A stretch of 64,000 bases of DNA from Neisseriaceae bacterium TC5R-5 (GTDB lineage: Bacteria > Pseudomonadota > Gammaproteobacteria > Burkholderiales > Chromobacteriaceae), in NCBI GenBank assembly GCA_020830965.2, contig JACCFC020000003.1, positions 18,420 to 82,419 on the forward strand, read 5' to 3'. The notes below the pieces were generated by a model. The model saw only the letters and a program-made list of their open reading frames with translations. It did no database searches and was not told where the DNA came from. A program made the translations under genes and the position numbers. This document shows positions 650 to 60,948 of the stretch, one piece after another (the stretch's first letter is position 1; every line of letters starts with the position of its first letter).

Positions 650-1243
650 TTAATTATAAGCAAAAGAATAATCAGCTGAAGAAACTACGGTACCCGCTCC
701 AGGTTGAACATAGGCGCCAGTGGCATTAGCTGCATAGTAACTAACGGAATATGTCATTACCGCAGTTCTGTTAGGAGCCGCGCCTGTTAATGTAAAGTAA
801 TTAGCAGAACCGGCACCAGAATTAGGACCACCTAAAATGATCGCGCTACCATCGAGATTACGCAACTGAAGCTCAACGTTGGTGGCCGTACCTGACACAT
901 TTTTCAGACGGGTACCCGTTGAATTAGCGGTAGTAGTCAATTCAAAGTGTGCGGAAACTCCGTTCATAGGGGTAGCAGGTGTGCCGTCTACGATATTTGC
1001 TGGGCAGTCTATTGCTGTCAATGTAAACTGTCTCGAACCGGCTTCACGCCCAGCAGCATCAGGTAATGCACTCTGGCTAACTGTTGGCAGCTCAACAGTT
1101 TTATTAACATCAGCGGGCAAAAGAGTACATGTATTAGCGGTGATCAAACCGGTAAAGTTAACCGTACCATTGGCAGCAAAAGTCGAACCAGCAGCAACCA
1201 TACCCAAAGCACTCAAAACACCTACTACGATTTGTTTTTTCAT
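650..1243 (-). CDS. Type 1-like fimbrial major subunit (pilin)
   Basis: This is a 197-residue secreted pilin of the chaperone-usher class. Residues 1-23 are a clear signal peptide ending in STFA-A. The mature part starts NGTVNFTGLITANTCTLLPA, with the first conserved cysteine, and the second cysteine follows in LTAIDCPAN; the pair forms the family disulfide. The C-terminus ends with the alternating aromatic pattern SADYSFAYN, the beta-zipper segment bound by the chaperone. AAGG precedes the ATG by 8 bases. It stands alone: its likely chaperone and usher partners are almost 40 kb away (38.5-44.7 kb). Its upstream region lacks the conserved promoter module seen before three of the pilins there. 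It may be a solitary accessory subunit. Confidence 0.85.
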   Translation of the reverse strand: MKKQIVVGVLSALGMVAAGSTFAANGTVNFTGLITANTCTLLPADVNKTVELPTVSQSALPDAAGREAGSRQFTLTAIDCPANIVDGTPATPMNGVSAHFELTTTANSTGTRLKNVSGTATNVELQLRNLDGSAIILGGPNSGAGSANYFTLTGAAPNRTAVMTYSVSYYAANATGAYVQPGAGTVVSSADYSFAYN

Positions 1244-38552: not shown

Positions 38553-41174
38553 TCAGGCATTGCCACAAGTGGCATCTAAGCGAGACAACAACTGATCTGC
38601 CTGTGCTTTCGTATCCAACTGATAAGGCAAGGTGCATTGTTGCTGCGCCTGCTCACCCCATTTCACCGTCAACTTACCGTTATTACCGGCTACCCGCACA
38701 TAGGTCTGTCCACCCTGCCCTACCATCCCCACATTGTTGCCTTCGCTGTCATACACGGTCGCGCCCAAAGGTAAGGCACTGCCATCTGCCTGTAGCGCCT
38801 TAATCAATAAGGCCTGGCCAGAGCGGGTAGTAAATTTCAGTTTCACCGCCATACCGGCATAAGGTGCTACCCGAATCTGGTTATTCGTCAACTCGGTATG
38901 ACGATTAAGGCCTTTGTTCTCCAACACAACATCGTTATAACGATATGGATTGAGCGACGGCACCAGCGCATAGCCTGAGCTGTTTATGGTGGCACCCATA
39001 GCATTCTGGATTGAGGCACCAGCCGCGCCCGGCGCTTCTACCAGGGCAAAGGTATCGCTCAGATAAGGCCCCAGCGTAACGCCACCCGCATGCACCGCAA
39101 CGGCACCACGAGCACTGGCACTGCTCTGCCAAAAGTTCTGGCCCTGTGAATATGTCGCACCAACACTGGCCAAAGCTAAGGATTTTTGCAAACTGGTATT
39201 GAAATTAGCGGCATGGCCCTGCTCATCATAGCTAACGCCCAGGTTATAACTCACAGTTTTTGCTTCATCCAGCAGACCGGATAAGGAAGTCTGGTAATTA
39301 TTGCGACCATCACTTTGCGTCACCGAGCTGGATAAATTAGCCGCACGACCTTCTTTTCCTAAAGGCATAGAAACCGAAAACATCACCGCATTGCTAGTTT
39401 GACTAGTACTATTGGAGTCCAAAGTATTTTTGCCGCTCAACGCACCCATCTGCTGACGACTGATGGATACACTGTATTGCATCGAATGGAAACTATTACT
39501 GTAAGACAACTGCAATTGGGTATCGGACTGTTTGTTACTGTAATAATCACTAGCCGAAGCCGACAGTGACAGTTGACCGTAAACACCCAAATCCTGGCTG
39601 ATATTGGCAGTAAATTGATTGCGCTGCTGATAAGCAGCAATCGCTTGTATTTGCCCTTGCTGGCGCGCTAAACCGGTATTGATCGCCTCGCTCAAATCAC
39701 GGAAGGCCCCAGTCGAATAGCGATAGCTACCCAGAGAAAAATTAGTGCCGGTTTCGGCAATCGCATAGCTATAATCCAACCCTGTACGCCAACCGCTGAT
39801 ATTGACATCATTGATATTTCTGCTTTTCGAATAAGTCGTCGTCAGGCCAAATGCACCAAACGAACTCCCCCATACCGCCCCACCCAGCAGCGCCAGATAA
39901 TTCTGCGACATCCGCACTGCCATATTGCCGGTAATAGCATTACTGATACCGCGCTCATACGTTACATCGGAAAACAGCGCCTTGCTGCCCGGAATGTCCC
40001 GTACCTGTCCTAGCGTGGCGCTATAACGCGAATACCCAGGTCTCATCGATTGTGGTACCACAGAAAATGGCACGCTGAACTGGCTGACGCGACCATCGGC
40101 TTCTTGTACCTCAACATCCAAACTGCCACGATTACTGGTCGGTGCAATGTCGGTAATCTCGAAAGCACCGGGAGCTACCGTGGTCTGATAAATCTGGTTA
40201 TTACCCTGACGGATAACAACTCGTGCACTGGTGGCGGCAATGCCACGCACAGCTGGGGCATAGCCACGTACCGAGTCCGGCAACATCTGCTCATCGCTTT
40301 GAATTTGTACGCCACGAAAGCTCATGCTGTTAAGCAAGCTGCCACGGGTAAAACTCTCCCCCACCGTCAACTCGCTTTGCAGGCTGGGCAAAGTTCTTTG
40401 TGCATACACTCGTGTTACCTGGAACTCACTCGCTCCCACGCTGCTACGGGTATAGCTGCTCTGCTGGCGTAAACGCCACAAATCGAGATTTACGCCACCA
40501 TTAGTATTGATATAAAAACTATCATTAGTTTTGCCTTGTGAGCTTGAATAATGATAACTGGCATCGTAATTGATAAAAGCAATATGACCACCCACATCCA
40601 ACTCTGCCAGCGGCACGCTATCATGTGCCACTTTCACCATCAAAGCCTGCGGGATAGACAGATTCAAGCGCAAGCGGGGGAAATCGAACTGGGAGCGAGC
40701 ACCGGCAAGACGCTCGCGTAATGGCACACAGGCTTTATCCTGCGCACTATCCGCCGCCACAACCTTGTCGGTAATGCCTAAACTGGCAGGCAGTACGCCA
40801 GCCGCCAATAAATATGCGTTATCCAAACAGGCAATGAGTTCGCGATTTTTAGCATCATCACGAAACTCTACTTGCTTGCGTGATTGCAAATGATCATTAA
40901 TGTACACATCCACCTGATACGTACCAGGACTCGCCGCATTAGCGTGATTAAAACGCTCAACATCACCCAGCGCCGCAGCGGAGCCTAACAACAGACTACT
41001 GTCGAAATGGAAAGCTGAATCAGAAGACTCACTCGGCTGCTGCGCTAACTCTGCACCCATAGTCAGTGCAGGCAAAGCAAATGCCACAGCTACCCCTAAT
41101 ACGGAGAGCGGGAAATACCTAGCTGATGTAACAGCAGCAGGTATGGCAGCGCGAGCACGACGCAGGGAGGTCAT
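38553..41174 (-). CDS. Fimbrial outer-membrane usher protein
   Basis: An 873-residue FimD/PapC-type usher. It takes chaperone-pilin complexes and secretes and assembles the fibre through a 24-strand outer-membrane barrel. It has a long signal peptide (about 1-40), an N-terminal periplasmic domain (FHFDSSLLLGSAAALGDVERF), the barrel with plug domain (GYAPAVRGIAATSARVVIRQ), VPFSVVPQSMRPGYSRYS and C-terminal domains with the Cys pair in QCTLPYQLDT and ATCGNA. The region before the ATG is pyrimidine-rich with no ribosome site. The repeated promoter module lies 38-81 bases upstream, so the gene probably has its own transcript. Confidence 0.93.
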   Translation of the reverse strand: MTSLRRARAAIPAAVTSARYFPLSVLGVAVAFALPALTMGAELAQQPSESSDSAFHFDSSLLLGSAAALGDVERFNHANAASPGTYQVDVYINDHLQSRKQVEFRDDAKNRELIACLDNAYLLAAGVLPASLGITDKVVAADSAQDKACVPLRERLAGARSQFDFPRLRLNLSIPQALMVKVAHDSVPLAELDVGGHIAFINYDASYHYSSSQGKTNDSFYINTNGGVNLDLWRLRQQSSYTRSSVGASEFQVTRVYAQRTLPSLQSELTVGESFTRGSLLNSMSFRGVQIQSDEQMLPDSVRGYAPAVRGIAATSARVVIRQGNNQIYQTTVAPGAFEITDIAPTSNRGSLDVEVQEADGRVSQFSVPFSVVPQSMRPGYSRYSATLGQVRDIPGSKALFSDVTYERGISNAITGNMAVRMSQNYLALLGGAVWGSSFGAFGLTTTYSKSRNINDVNISGWRTGLDYSYAIAETGTNFSLGSYRYSTGAFRDLSEAINTGLARQQGQIQAIAAYQQRNQFTANISQDLGVYGQLSLSASASDYYSNKQSDTQLQLSYSNSFHSMQYSVSISRQQMGALSGKNTLDSNSTSQTSNAVMFSVSMPLGKEGRAANLSSSVTQSDGRNNYQTSLSGLLDEAKTVSYNLGVSYDEQGHAANFNTSLQKSLALASVGATYSQGQNFWQSSASARGAVAVHAGGVTLGPYLSDTFALVEAPGAAGASIQNAMGATINSSGYALVPSLNPYRYNDVVLENKGLNRHTELTNNQIRVAPYAGMAVKLKFTTRSGQALLIKALQADGSALPLGATVYDSEGNNVGMVGQGGQTYVRVAGNNGKLTVKWGEQAQQQCTLPYQLDTKAQADQLLSRLDATCGNA

Positions 41175-41211: not shown

Positions 41212-41255
41212 ATTGTCCATGATTAGCACAATGGACAAAATCGGAATCGTCTTAA
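41212..41255 (-). promoter_or_regulatory. Repeated fimbrial promoter module, copy 4 (usher)
   Basis: Minus strand: TTAAGAC, 2 bases, TTCCGATTTTG, 17 bases, GGACAAT. The spacing equals that of the three pilin copies; the 11-base block has 3 mismatches and the -10-like box one. It lies 38 bases upstream of the usher start. Confidence 0.6.
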
Positions 41256-41349
41256 TTTAAGATATTGTTTTTAAAGAAAAACATAAGCGGCTATTTCGGA
41301 TGAAGACTGCTGTGAGGTATTCAGCTATCGATGAAGGTTTCGCTAGAAT

Positions 41350-41913
41350 TTATTGATAAGTCAAATAATACTGCACCGCACCACGTACGGTACCCGCCCC
41401 ACCTGCGCCACCTTCGACGACATAGCGAACAGCATAATCATAGCTAAGCGCGGTTTGATTTGCGGCAAGCAATAAGGCATTAGTCGTATATCCACCACCA
41501 CTATTAGCGTTGAGATTGAACCCAGTAGATGGGTTTGCCGGATCGTATAACTGTAATCGGACATTAGTCGCCGTACCCGTATTCCCCAAGTTACCACTGC
41601 TAGTGGTCGCGCTAGAAACAAAACGTACTTTGATTGGGGTAGCTTGGCTGCTGTTAACGGTACAACCACTGATCTTAACAGTAAACTTGGTCGCACCAAC
41701 ATTCGCGCTAGGAGCCAAATTAGCAGGCAGATCCGCCGTGCGTACCATTGGTAAGGTGACTGTGGTGGTCGCCCCCACCGCATCATTATTGATACTGACA
41801 ACACAACTATTAGCGGTTACCTCTCCTTCAAACTGGATGGTGTTATCAGCATGAGCAGGAAGTATTAAGAAAATCAGCAAACAAACCAATACCTGTAGCA
41901 ATCCGTTTTTCAT
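41350..41913 (-). CDS. Fimbrial subunit between chaperone and usher genes
   Basis: A 187-residue pilin-like protein. I start at ATG 41913 so that residues 1-22 (MKNGLLQVLVCLLIFLILPA) form a signal peptide; an upstream ATG at 41949 would add a polar tail. The mature part starts DNTIQFEGEVTANSCVVSIN, with the second cysteine in KISGCTVNSSQ, and ends VQYYLTYQ, the usual beta-zipper end. It is clearly less similar to the three tandem pilins than they are to each other. It lacks the repeated promoter module and is probably expressed with the chaperone gene. Its place suggests a minor or tip-proximal subunit. Confidence 0.85.
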   Translation of the reverse strand: MKNGLLQVLVCLLIFLILPAHADNTIQFEGEVTANSCVVSINNDAVGATTTVTLPMVRTADLPANLAPSANVGATKFTVKISGCTVNSSQATPIKVRFVSSATTSSGNLGNTGTATNVRLQLYDPANPSTGFNLNANSGGGYTTNALLLAANQTALSYDYAVRYVVEGGAGGAGTVRGAVQYYLTYQ

Positions 41914-42051
41914 GAATATTACCCACTTGCTAGACAGCTTGTTAACCATGGCTAACTTAATTGGTCGATAGATTCGTTGTTAATATCATCGCAACATCGC
42001 TTGCCATGGTTAGCTATTCACTATATCCAGCTGAAACCCACTTTGAACACC

Positions 42052-42789
42052 TTAAGGCGCGATAGCCGCCTTACCCTCGCTGACACCACCATAGTCATTG
42101 ACATAGCTGAACGTCACATTGCCTGGTACGACAGCCGCCTGTTTCAAACTAGACACCGGCCAACTGGCAGAAGAAAACGGCGCAACCATCTCTGCGGTAA
42201 ACGGTAGTTCTTTATCTTTAAGCAGGAGCTTGCCGCCAGTGAGCGACACATGAAAACCAGTCGGATTATTCACCGTTACATGCCAGACATGATCTTTCTG
42301 ACTTAAATTGAAACGTAGCAAGCTAGGTGCGGCTTCTGCGGTGCCAACAATCGTAGGAGGGCGATAAAACAGCTTGAGACGATTACGCAGCATCACCACC
42401 ATCTGGTTTTGCTCACTTTTGCGCATATCTATCTGTGGAATCTGGATAGTGTTCAGAAAATACAGCGATTCACGATCCTGTGGTAAATCCTTGCCGGTAA
42501 AGATCAAGCGTACCGTTTGACCAGACTTAGGCTCCATACGAAACACAGGAGGAGTCACCAAAAAGGGGGCATCTGCCTTATCTGGTGTAGAGTTTTCATC
42601 ACCGGAATCCGCCCATACCTGCATCAAGTTCGGCGTTGCATCTTCATTGCTCAACTGAACTGACTTTTCGCTTAGGCTGCTATCGTAAATCACCCGCGTA
42701 CCACTTAACACCACACTAGCCGATACTGAGCCACTACTAAGCAGGCTCGCACACAACAAGGTACTCAATGCGAGGGCAGACTTTCTCAT
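42052..42789 (-). CDS. Periplasmic fimbrial chaperone (PapD/FimC type)
   Basis: A 245-residue two-domain immunoglobulin-like chaperone. It caps pilin subunits by donor-strand complementation and delivers them to the usher. The start is ATG 42789, with AAGGA 8 bases upstream; the first 25 residues are a signal peptide (to SVSA-S). The subunit-anchoring arginine (GTRVIYDSS) and lysine (RNRLKLFYRP) of the family are present, as are the G1-strand region and LPQDRESLYFLNTIQIP. One chaperone must serve all four pilins here and perhaps the distant one at 650-1243. Confidence 0.93.
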   Translation of the reverse strand: MRKSALALSTLLCASLLSSGSVSASVVLSGTRVIYDSSLSEKSVQLSNEDATPNLMQVWADSGDENSTPDKADAPFLVTPPVFRMEPKSGQTVRLIFTGKDLPQDRESLYFLNTIQIPQIDMRKSEQNQMVVMLRNRLKLFYRPPTIVGTAEAAPSLLRFNLSQKDHVWHVTVNNPTGFHVSLTGGKLLLKDKELPFTAEMVAPFSSASWPVSSLKQAAVVPGNVTFSYVNDYGGVSEGKAAIAP

Positions 42790-42820
42790 GTGATCAATCC
42801 TTTTTTTCAACTATGTTTAA

Positions 42821-42838
42821 GGGGCAATCCCATGCCCC
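42821..42838 (-). promoter_or_regulatory. Hairpin between pilin 3 and chaperone genes
   Basis: GGGGCA-TGGGAT-TGCCCC on the minus strand forms a 6-bp stem 27 bases past the pilin stop and just before the chaperone ribosome site. Hairpins in this position commonly limit read-through or stabilise the abundant pilin message. There is no long T-run. Confidence 0.4.
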
Positions 42839-42865
42839 CTACCTCAACGGCAAGCCAGTAATGTT

Positions 42866-43393
42866 TTACTGATAAGCAAGCGAGTACTGCACACTGCCAT
42901 TAATCGCACCTGCCGCCGCTCCTGTTGTCTCAGCAAAATACTGCACACCGTATGTCCCAGTATAGGCAGCATTAGGAGGCGTGCCGGTCAGCGTAATAGC
43001 CGTAGGTGTCGTATAGATACCACCGGTAAGGGCAATAGCCGTCCCCGCGGTATCCAGCAATTGCAGTTTTACCGGATTAGTCGGCTTGGCCGGATCGACT
43101 AAGTTACCAGCAGTGGAAAAGTTACTAGCGACAAAACGTATTTTTGGTGCTGGCGTAGCAACACAGCCAGTTACCGCGATGGTGAAGTCGGTTTTGCCCG
43201 CCTTATTATTAGCAGCACTTAACTGCGCGGTCGGTACACTCGGCAGCAAAACTACCGGGTCTGCTGCACCATTGATAGCCACAGCACAGCTATTGGTAGT
43301 CAGTTCGCCTTGAAAATTAATGGTGTTGGCAAAAATCGCGAAAGAAGAAACCGACAAGGTAGCAAACACAACGGTCAGAAATGATTTTTTCAC
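42866..43393 (-). CDS. Fimbrial subunit (tandem pilin 3)
   Basis: A 175-residue type 1-like pilin starting with GTG 43393 (AAGG upstream). The signal peptide runs to SSFAIFA-N. The mature protein opens TINFQGELTTNSCAVAINGA; the second Cys is in VTGCVATPAPK; the end is GSVQYSLAYQ. It is nearly identical over long stretches to pilin 2 next door (for example FSTAGNLVDPAKPTNPVKLQ), differing mainly around residues 125-145. This indicates recent duplication. It has its own copy of the repeated promoter module. Confidence 0.88.
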   Translation of the reverse strand: MKKSFLTVVFATLSVSSFAIFANTINFQGELTTNSCAVAINGAADPVVLLPSVPTAQLSAANNKAGKTDFTIAVTGCVATPAPKIRFVASNFSTAGNLVDPAKPTNPVKLQLLDTAGTAIALTGGIYTTPTAITLTGTPPNAAYTGTYGVQYFAETTGAAAGAINGSVQYSLAYQ

Positions 43394-43433
43394 CAGGTAT
43401 ACCTTTATATAAGTTTAAATAGCCGAAAAACAT

Positions 43434-43478
43434 ATTATCCGTATATCAACATCAAATAAATATAAGAAAAGTCTTAAA
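43434..43478 (-). promoter_or_regulatory. Repeated fimbrial promoter module, copy 3
   Basis: Minus strand: TTTAAGAC, 2 bases, TTCTTATATTT, 17 bases, GGATAAT. The -10-like box ends 41 bases before the start of pilin 3. Confidence 0.65.
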
Positions 43479-43532
43479 TAAAACTAATTAATATTTTTGA
43501 CCAATAAAACAAAATGGCTGATTCCGTGTGGC

Positions 43533-44057
43533 TTACTGGTAAGCAAGCGCGTACTGCACACTGCCATTAATCGCACCTGCCGCAGCTCCTGTTGCTTCGG
43601 CAATATACTGAACAGAATACTTGCCGGTATAGCTCATAGCAGAGCCCGTGCCGGTCAACGTAACCGTAGGAGTAGTAAAGGAACCACTGGTGAGGGCCAT
43701 GGCCGTCCCCGCAGTATCCAGCAACTGCAGTTTGACCGGATTAGTCGGCTTAGCCGGGTCAACTAAATTACCAGCGGTGGAGAAGTTGCTAGAGACAAAA
43801 CGGATTTTCGGTGCCGGCGTAGCAGAGCAACCCGTTACGGCGATAGTAAAATCTGTTTTACCCGCCTTGTTAGTCGCGGCACTTAGCTGAGAAGTAGGAA
43901 CGGTCGGCAACAAAACTACCGGGTCTGTCGCACCATTAATGGCCACGGCGCAGCTTGCCGTTGTTAGCTCGCCCTGGAAATTAATGGTATTAGCAAGAGT
44001 CGCGAAGGAAGAAACGGAAAGTGCAGCACACATAACAGCCAAGAATGATTTTTTCAT
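43533..44057 (-). CDS. Fimbrial subunit (tandem pilin 2)
   Basis: A 174-residue pilin, started at ATG 44057 because AAGG lies 8 bases upstream and the signal peptide (MKKSFLAVMCAALSVSSFA) then begins correctly. It carries NTINFQGELTTASCAVAING, second Cys in VTGCSATPAPK, and the end GSVQYALAYQ. By eye it is about 85% identical to pilin 3. The duplicated unit includes the promoter module, so each copy can be expressed separately. Confidence 0.88.
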   Translation of the reverse strand: MKKSFLAVMCAALSVSSFATLANTINFQGELTTASCAVAINGATDPVVLLPTVPTSQLSAATNKAGKTDFTIAVTGCSATPAPKIRFVSSNFSTAGNLVDPAKPTNPVKLQLLDTAGTAMALTSGSFTTPTVTLTGTGSAMSYTGKYSVQYIAEATGAAAGAINGSVQYALAYQ

Positions 44058-44109
44058 CTGATATACCTTCATCTAGGTTGAAATAATGAATAAGCTTAAT
44101 GATAAAAAG

Positions 44110-44155
44110 ATTATCCATAAATTAAGCATTAAGAAATATAGGAATAGTCTTAAAA
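44110..44155 (-). promoter_or_regulatory. Repeated fimbrial promoter module, copy 2
   Basis: Minus strand: TTTTAAGAC, 2 bases, TTCCTATATTT, 17 bases, GGATAAT. The -10-like box ends 53 bases before the start of pilin 2, the same distance as for pilin 1. Confidence 0.68.
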
Positions 44156-44220
44156 CATAAAATGATTAGTATTAAATTTAAAATGATGATTAGTAATGAT
44201 ACGAATATGGCTGCGTTTCA

Positions 44221-44721
44221 TCACGGATACGCCACCGCATATTGCAAACTGCCAGTAATCGCTCCAGGCGTTTTAGTGCTCGTTGTCTCGGTATAGTATT
44301 GAATGAATAGCGGGCTGGTTTCCGCGTTATTCACTAATTTACTAGGTACCAGCACCGCTCCAGCAGAGGTGAACTTCACCACCTGATTCAGAGTAGTAAG
44401 CAACTGTAGTTTTACATTAGCGTTCCCACCGAACGAGCCACTAGTCGCATTGATATTGTTAGCAAGAAGCTTTATCTGGGGAGTTGCTGTACTACAGTAG
44501 CTCAACGAAACCTCAAAACTGGTTTTATCCGCCACTTGGCCAGCTGTTGCCAAAGCGCTTGTCAGTACTGTTGGTAATAACACCACAGCATCAGCAGCCC
44601 CATTTACCGTCATGACGCAGCTATTGCTGGTTAATTCACCCTGAAAACTGACCGTGCCAGCAACAGCCATACAGGAAGAGAGTGACAGTGCGACAGCAAT
44701 AGCCAGGCATGATTTCCTCAT
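44221..44721 (-). CDS. Fimbrial subunit (tandem pilin 1)
   Basis: A 166-residue pilin, started at ATG 44721, where a normal signal peptide begins (MRKSCLAIAVALSLSSCMAV to AVA-G); the open frame reaches 24 codons further up. The mature part opens TVSFQGELTSNSCVMTVNGA; the second Cys is in LSYCSTATPQ; the end is GSLQYAVAYP. It is related to pilins 2 and 3 but clearly more diverged. It is the first gene of the cluster and has its own promoter module. Confidence 0.87.
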   Translation of the reverse strand: MRKSCLAIAVALSLSSCMAVAGTVSFQGELTSNSCVMTVNGAADAVVLLPTVLTSALATAGQVADKTSFEVSLSYCSTATPQIKLLANNINATSGSFGGNANVKLQLLTTLNQVVKFTSAGAVLVPSKLVNNAETSPLFIQYYTETTSTKTPGAITGSLQYAVAYP

Positions 44722-44773
44722 CTTGTTTGTCTCCAAATAAGTTGGAAGAACATCCATCTTCAACAAGATCCAG

Positions 44774-44819
44774 ATTATCCCTATGCCAGGCACCCGGAAA
44801 TATAGGAACTGTCTTAAAA
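44774..44819 (-). promoter_or_regulatory. Repeated fimbrial promoter module, copy 1
   Basis: Minus strand: TTTTAAGAC, 2 bases, TTCCTATATTT, 17 bases, GGATAAT. The core TAAGAC-NN-TTCCTA resembles the enterobacterial RcsAB box (TAAGAATATTCCTA) and the BvgA half-site TTTCCTA. The -10-like box ends 53 bases before pilin 1. Confidence 0.68.
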
Positions 44820-45010: not shown

Positions 45011-45120
45011 CGCCGCTAACAAAACCCCTGATCCGGCGTGGCGCCTCCTTGCCGTAATACTGGTACTGTCTGCGTCGGCGCGCCTTAGCTCAGGGGCTCT
45101 TTGGGGTTTTGTTAGCGGCT
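45011..45120 (+). repeat. MITE-like 110-bp repeat, copy 1, perfect 17-bp terminal inverted repeats
   Basis: GCCGCTAACAAAACCCC (45012-45028) and its exact complement (45103-45119) bound a GC-rich interior with CTGCGTCGGCGCGCC. A second copy of the same length lies inverted at 54501-54610, about 85% identical by eye. It encodes no protein and could fold into one long hairpin. It sits between the fimbrial cluster and the next minus-strand gene. Confidence 0.8.
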
Positions 45121-54500: not shown

Positions 54501-54610
54501 AACCGCTAACAAAACCTCGAAGAGTCCCTGAGCCGAGGCGCGCCGACGCAGACAATACAACGTAGTACGGCAAGGAGGCGCAACGCTAGATCAGGGGGTT
54601 GTTAGCGGCT
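54501..54610 (-). repeat. MITE-like 110-bp repeat, copy 2 (inverted relative to copy 1)
   Basis: The reverse complement aligns end to end with 45011-45120, sharing CGCCTCCTTGCCGTA, GTCTGCGTCGGCGCGCC and CTCAGGG. The terminal repeats (CCGCTAACAA type) are slightly decayed. It lies after the exoprotein terminator. The rest of the gap (54611-54763) shows nothing I can name. Confidence 0.8.
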
Positions 54611-60901: not shown

Positions 60902-60948
60902 AGAGCCGCTAACAAAGCCCGAATTTAAAAGGCTTTATTAGCAGCTCT
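60902..60948 (-). repeat. 47-bp termini-only version of the 110-bp repeat, in the recA leader
   Basis: Arms AGAGCCGCTAACAAAGCC (60902-60919) and GGCTTTATTAGCAGCTCT (60931-60948) pair at 16 of 18 positions around an 11-base loop. The arms match the ends of the 110-bp repeats at 45011 and 54501 (AGCCGCTAACAAA). The interior is missing. Confidence 0.7.

Follow-up and report, generated by a model that had tools for sequence, protein, structure and literature searches.

In Pseudomonas aeruginosa PA14, the RcsB/PvrR system is reported to activate the chaperone-usher genes cupD through a promoter (cupD1) with an RcsAB-like site, whose mutation abolishes function; further targets of this PvrSR/RcsCB system include response regulators (PMC2696094, PMC3842833). 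According to the cited passages, the nearest site in promoters activated by BvgA abuts a poor -35 (PMC7250471), and RcsB homodimers usually bind upstream of the -35 (PMC5651002). Of the known systems, P. aeruginosa RcsB/PvrR-cupD and Bordetella BvgA-fim come closest to a fimbrial gene cluster that we analyzed in a 64,000-nucleotide stretch of the genome of Neisseriaceae bacterium TC5R-5 (the window, C72:18420-82419; genome of 3,526,581 bases in 148 contigs). Several of its fimbrial genes share a promoter module of fixed layout, and our comparison with related genomes suggests that it is worked by one RcsB-like protein.

The cluster is encoded on the minus strand in the order pilin 1, pilin 2, pilin 3, chaperone, pilin 4, usher (Table 1). 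Pilin, PapD chaperone and usher families are all represented, with pilins 1 and 4 recognized by similarity only. A sequence-only reading of the window had described four minus-strand promoter modules with equal internal spacing upstream of pilins 1-3 and the usher, and we find both positions and spacing as described. The conserved core of the module is TTAAGAC-N2-TTCCTA-N22-GGATAAT. A longer string, initially assigned to all four copies, is exact at pilins 1 and 2, but its TATTT segment following the box is absent from the usher copy and from the orphan copy described below. The usher copy is indeed degenerate (TTCCGA, GGACAAT) but not alone in this, as the pilin 3 copy contains TTCTTA and thus one core mismatch.

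A search of the whole genome for the core, allowing up to 3 mismatches, returned 5 matches, with none for the reversed-pattern control. The fifth module (C1:188388-188431) is located upstream of an orphan pilin gene on contig C1, and no chaperone or usher was found among the open reading frames listed within 13 kb around this gene. Listing the genes downstream of the genome-wide matches, as proposed with the sequence-only reading, gave fimbrial genes (pilin or usher) in 5 of 5 cases. The box alone (TAAGACNNTTCCTA) is less specific and gave 12 matches in the whole genome at up to 1 mismatch, compared with 3 in the control; three are exact, each at a pilin gene, and the nine with one mismatch include the copies at pilin 3 and the usher. 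No site at up to 2 mismatches is present at the remaining three usher loci of the window genome. Pairwise comparison of the five copies reveals that the box (11-14 of 15 positions identical) and the -10 segment (6-7 of 7) are kept, and that identity is lower in the spacer (4-13 of 22), in the 60 bases upstream (13-25) and in the 40 bases downstream (9-20).

The -35 position in the five copies reads, by eye, TATTTC, TATTTC, TATTTA, TTTTGT and TTCCCA. It is poor in four of them, matching TTGACA at no more than 2 positions; the orphan copy matches 4. The box directly abuts a non-consensus -35 (assigned by eye), the arrangement of BvgA/FimZ-type sites. A generic promoter scan listed none of the four modules of the cluster, which is not surprising for promoters that lack a -35. 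GATAAT, proposed as the -10, resembles TATAAT; the box, which had been suggested to take the place of the -35, adjoins it instead. If GATAAT represents -12 to -7, the 15-mer box covers -50 to -36, with the center of its 14-mer core at -42.5, adjacent to the -35 hexamer. This corresponds to a class II sigma70 arrangement (site near -41.5/-42.5 at a fixed distance to the -10), counted from a predicted transcript start. An alternative sigma factor was considered and rejected by reasoning, given the conserved box at -50 to -36 and the TATAAT-like -10.

Orthologous clusters in three relatives, G011, G014 and G023 (usher 50-53%, pilin 46-47% identical), contain more palindromic boxes upstream of the pilin (TTAGGAGGAATCCTA, TTAGGAATTATCCTA and TTAGGAAAAATCCTA, respectively). 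We then searched a union pattern, TTARGANNNWTCCTA, in the window genome and 18 further genomes of the genus. We obtained 31 matches, 28 of them in six genomes (4 in the window genome, G000; 7 in G011, 5 in G014, 4 in G015, 3 in G016 and 5 in G023) and 3 in the other 13, compared with 3 and 5 for the reversed control. The six site-rich genomes are those with a close orthologue (at least 59% identity) of an RcsB-like response regulator encoded on contig C63 of the window genome. Fisher's test on the presence of a site per genome gives 2.6e-4, a value calculated from related genomes and hence from non-independent trials.

Conservation of the box in relatives holds for the general but not for the original form: the exact TTAAGAC form is found only in the window genome, and the relatives carry TTAGGA/TTAAGA-N4-TCCTA. 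We rejected the exact form as a widespread element, as TTAAGANNNTTCCTA-N23-GATAAT gave 20 stretches in 84,980 species genomes, mostly from unrelated phyla. A tblastn search with 17 proteins of the window genome detected no pilin, chaperone or usher in these 20 stretches, and the exact form is therefore not widely conserved. It was likewise rejected as a family-wide element, being confined to the window genome among 61 family genomes from 10 genera; the other family matches (G005, G016 and G039, the last inspected) have 3 mismatches each and appear chance-like. A scan of viral contigs with the own-form motif gave 4 matches.

The distance between box and -10 is fixed in the relatives. When the 28 sites were chosen by the box alone, with the -10 unused in the search, TANNAT was found exactly 23 nucleotides downstream in 13 of 28, compared with 9 of 1372 at the other 49 offsets (7 of 19 at offset 23 after collapsing orthologous sites). 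The window genome contributes none of these, its boxes being followed at offset 23 by GATAAT (three) or TATAGT (one). Combining box and -10, TTARGANNNWTCCTA-N23-TANNAT with up to 1 mismatch gave 41 sites in the 61 family genomes and none for the reversed control. Thirty are in the six regulator-bearing genomes, 1 in the other 13, 3 in ten g2 genomes, 5 in three g7 genomes (G039, G041, G042) and 2 in G059, which belongs to another genus. The two G059 sites (TTAAGYCAATTCCTA-N23-TAAGAT, one mismatch each) are located 175 and 250 nucleotides upstream of two pilin genes (L272, L275), and G059 also encodes an RcsB-like/BvgS-like pair. Its pilin genes present a second instance of one module per subunit.

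We next consider the genes behind the 28 sites. Chaperone-usher or pilin genes follow 12 of them, and a box is present at 11 of 34 usher loci in the six regulator-bearing genomes compared with 0 of 17 in the other 13. Five sites are found upstream of the operon of the regulator itself, in five of five relatives; in all of these the operon consists of a REC-EAL gene, the RcsB-like regulator and an EvgS/BvgS-like kinase, with the box ∼0.24-0.48 kb 5' of the REC-EAL gene. In G016, the regulator operon has as its neighbor a chaperone-usher operon that itself carries a box. Three sites, in three relatives, precede a kpsF-like gene, downstream of which are capsule-type export genes (KpsF scores above its family cut-off, the KpsM- and KpsE-like genes below theirs), four precede a gene resembling KfrA (family confirmed in the G014 copy, the others by eye), and one precedes an OmpR-type response regulator gene. 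The remaining three have no clear target (G014 C13, at a contig end; G014 C54; C24 of the window genome). A box in G014 (L206:3423, minus strand) sits beside genes that flank a box-bearing fimbrial cluster in G011 and G023, with no fimbrial gene seen in the 7 kb examined; a fimbrial cluster has perhaps been lost here.

Five relatives share a site TTAAGAAWAATCTTA-N23-TAGTAT followed by ∼200 conserved nucleotides without an evident open reading frame, and in the four of five loci aligned the candidate transcript ends in a GC-rich hairpin and a T run. We list it as a candidate small RNA. No Rfam match was found in the three loci searched, and a structured RNA was rejected as its predicted fold is unexceptional (z -1.16), which leaves promoter, conservation and terminator-like end in its support. 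It may parallel the small RNA RprA, which RcsB is reported to activate in Escherichia coli (PMC5651002). A similar promoter, TTGAGAGTTTTCCCA-N23-TAGTAT (L252:3505, plus strand; a CadC-like gene is downstream in the copy inspected), was rejected as a regulon member: it occurs in ten genus genomes, with and without the RcsB-like regulator, must therefore be kept by something else, and was left out.

The C63 protein is one of nine GerE matches in the window genome, eight of which score above the cut-off. It combines a receiver domain with a GerE domain bearing an RcsB-type helix, and its nearest solved relative is RcsB (E 9.3e-24). The helix-turn-helix is identical to that of E. coli RcsB at 31 of 59 positions, and the recognition helices (RSIKTISTQK and RSIKTISSQK, respectively) are one residue apart. 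In reported RcsB-DNA structures, Lys-180 and Ser-184 touch bases of the half-sites TTAGGAA and TCTAAGA (PMC5829831). The corresponding residues are Lys and Thr in the C63 clade and in G059, and Lys with Gly or Asn in the tested paralogues. In a tree of 22 regulators, the C63 protein groups with its five orthologues in a single clade (bootstrap 100), with the tested paralogues outside; paralogues in the other 13 genomes share 43-47% (G018, G022, G025, G026, G028) and 44% (G021) identity with it. The C63 gene is flanked by an aminotransferase gene and a hybrid kinase gene and does not have an rcsD-rcsB-rcsC neighborhood. The kinase contains HisKA, HATPase, receiver and Hpt domains; its SBP_bac_3 match is below threshold. 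The one REC-EAL protein tested from a relative scores 196.4 bits against the PvrR family, whose cut-off is 580.

Taken together, sequence comparison makes it probable that the modules are sigma70 promoters with a poor -35, abutted by a predicted dimer site for the C63 RcsB-like protein and subject to class II activation of the fimbrial genes. The sequence-only reading had named a regulator of the NarL/RcsB/BvgA class; the comparative evidence agrees and narrows the choice to the C63 gene. Each module would comprise a TATAAT-like -10, a poor -35 and, directly upstream, a site for a NarL/FixJ-family dimer. The most likely regulator, the C63 protein, would be fed by the adjacent EvgS/BvgS-type hybrid kinase in response to a presumed signal. 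In its phosphorylated state, the C63 protein would occupy the imperfect palindrome and bring in RNA polymerase via sigma region 4, activating rather than repressing transcription, with starts predicted ∼7 nucleotides after GGATAAT. We favor class II activation by a phosphorylated RcsB-like dimer because of the positions that BvgA and RcsB homodimer sites take relative to the -35. The predicted targets, which would be turned on in step, are the usher, the C1 orphan pilin and pilins 1, 2 and 3, the last probably together with chaperone and pilin 4. We infer from this layout that five units could be switched separately, as had been proposed for pilins and usher; the chaperone and pilin 4 lack a module, and therefore not all cluster genes would be switched in this way.

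Table 1. Coordinates of the fimbrial cluster, its promoter modules, the putative regulator and the candidate small RNA. Positions refer to the window unless a locus is named; the Pfam search for the chaperone used 42052-42810, its start codon being picked by eye.
Feature	Position	Strand	Description
Promoter module 1	44774..44817	-	Box TTAAGACAGTTCCTA, N22, GGATAAT; upstream of pilin 1
Promoter module 2	44110..44153	-	Box TTAAGACTATTCCTA, N22, GGATAAT; upstream of pilin 2
Promoter module 3	43434..43477	-	Box TTAAGACTTTTCTTA (one mismatch), N22, GGATAAT; upstream of pilin 3
Promoter module 4	41212..41255	-	Box TTAAGACGATTCCGA, N22, GGACAAT (two mismatches); upstream of usher
Pilin 1	44221..44721	-	No Pfam match; 46% identical to pilin 2
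Pilin 2	43533..44057	-	PF00419 (Fimbrial)
Pilin 3	42866..43393	-	PF00419 (Fimbrial); 83% identical to pilin 2
PapD-type chaperone	42052..42789	-	PF00345, PF02753; no own module
Pilin 4	41350..41949	-	No Pfam match; 42% identical to pilin 2; no own module
Outer-membrane usher	38553..41174	-	PF00577, PF13954, PF13953
RcsB-like response regulator	Contig C63, L034:2824-3489		PF00072, PF00196
Candidate small RNA	L248:3486-3730; also L258, L260, L243	+ (L248)	Box, TAGTAT, terminator-like end

Several observations weigh against control by the C63 protein. The six regulator-bearing genomes are related, and the co-occurrence counts are non-independent to that extent. Allowing up to 2 mismatches in the combined search raises the background: the six genomes then yield 56 sites (reversed control 13) and the other 13 genomes yield 11 (reversed control 15). 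The boxes of the window genome are followed by GATAAT, not TANNAT. The best NCBIfam match of the C63 protein is RcsB (NF008098), but at 106 bits this is far under the cut-off of 235 for an equivalog. The REC-EAL gene present in five of five relatives is absent beside the C63 regulator, and no convincing box was found upstream of the C63 regulator gene, the best candidate having 3 mismatches and no -10; autoregulation in the window genome was dropped for this reason. Finally, a FimZ-like regulator on contig C46 also has Lys and Thr at the RcsB base-contact positions, and these residues thus failed to tell the two proteins apart.

The C46 protein is at the center of the main rival explanation, in which promoters of the same kind are read, in the window genome, by a FimZ/EvgA/BvgA-like regulator. 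FimZ-type regulators are fimbrial activators. The best NCBIfam match of the C46 protein is FimZ (208.8 bits, cut-off 271), its best solved relative is EvgA, and its helix, SNKTVSTYKT, retains the two base-contact residues; BvgA-type regulators, too, are reported activators of fimbriae (PMC7250471). The distribution of the boxes renders this explanation unlikely, however. The box-bearing genomes G011, G014, G015, G016 and G023 encode no close C46 relative (best 33-34%). Among the ten g2 genomes, nine encode a C46 relative at 57-64% identity, and all ten together contain 3 sites, each with a -10 mismatch. Boxes occur at the RcsB-like operon and none at the C46 pair (up to 2 mismatches). This pair (L032) consists of the FimZ/EvgA-like regulator gene and a divergent PvrR-like REC-EAL gene and is common to several g2 genomes.

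Joint control, with the RcsB-like protein acting as a heterodimer with a partner (compare RcsB with RcsA, BglJ or MatA), would account for the asymmetry of TTAAGAC-N2-TTCCTA, seen in five of five copies of the window genome, as opposed to the near-palindromes of the relatives. In reported RcsB heterodimer sites, one half is kept and the other varies (PMC5651002). We found no gene for such a partner, and among the nine GerE matches an RcsB-type helix was seen, in the sequences inspected, in the C63 protein only; we regard joint control as distinctly improbable. The 83% identity of pilins 2 and 3 might suggest that the modules were left over from pilin gene duplication and have no regulatory role. 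However, box and -10 are kept although spacer and flanks have diverged, and gene duplication alone is therefore insufficient to explain the modules. The usher and the orphan pilin carry the module as well, and box and spacing recur at unrelated genes in relatives, which makes a relic origin highly implausible.

Activation by the C63 protein may be part of a wider scheme, which we put forward tentatively and with some doubt. In part of the genus, a self-controlled REC-EAL/RcsB-like/EvgS-like phosphorelay would drive several chaperone-usher fimbriae, a KpsF-type capsule export operon and a small RNA via one box-N23-TANNAT promoter, with pilins spreading as promoter-pilin cassettes. If true, cassette spread would let single subunits, such as the C1 orphan, enter the regulon wherever they are inserted.

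Other features were noted around these loci. An interspersed repeat ending in AGCCGCTAACAAAACCCC is found at 45011-45120, 54501-54610 and 60904-60921 of the window, twice as an inverted pair; there are 5 matches in the window, compared with 0.07 expected. Similar DNA is located, by eye, beside the orphan pilin (L001, ∼1616-1730) and upstream of a pilin gene on contig C61. Another chaperone-usher cluster lies directly before the window (L027, on C72) and continues at window positions 656-1237, its pilin extending into the window; it adjoins genes that by eye resemble a type VI secretion system. Contig C58 (L028:6133-7597) contains a LuxR gene with an autoinducer domain and a LuxI-like gene (by eye), ∼4 kb from yet another chaperone-usher cluster.

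Our literature search returned no paper on RcsB-type fimbrial control in this bacterial group. The analysis predicts a regulator, its binding site and a list of targets, all open to direct testing. If correct, RcsB-type control of adhesion and capsule would extend beyond enterobacteria and Pseudomonas, and the rigid geometry would make regulons readable from genome sequence.

Comparison with the enterobacterial Rcs phosphorelay reveals similarities in the closest solved protein, the recognition helix and the half-site TTAGGA, as well as in the capsule and fimbriae targets and in sites that are usually upstream of the -35 in the reported cases (PMC5651002); here, by contrast, an rcsD-rcsB-rcsC neighborhood is missing and the score is under the RcsB family cut-off. 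The Bordetella promoters of fim2, fim3 and fimX are alike in that scattered pilin genes have individual promoters with a site abutting a poor -35, but several BvgA dimers are reported there at 22-bp steps (PMC7250471), compared with one conserved site here, and the regulator favored here is RcsB-like, not BvgA-like. PA14 PvrSR/RcsCB-cupD shares the RcsB-type regulator, a hybrid kinase, a REC-EAL partner (PvrR) and an RcsAB-like site at a chaperone-usher operon. A predicted RcsB-like site likewise precedes a chaperone-usher operon in our system, and the fimbrial operon of G016 stands beside the regulator operon. Differences are the single EvgS/BvgS-type hybrid kinase in place of RcsC plus PvrS, the several fimbrial units that each have their own module with a fixed 23-nucleotide geometry, the capsule export genes and candidate small RNA added in relatives, and, in the window genome, the absence of both a REC-EAL gene and adjacency of regulator and fimbriae. 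The parts are of known kinds, and what is new is their combination: an RcsB-like regulator with an EvgS/BvgS-type kinase, a single rigid promoter geometry, separate modules for several subunits and a detached pilin.

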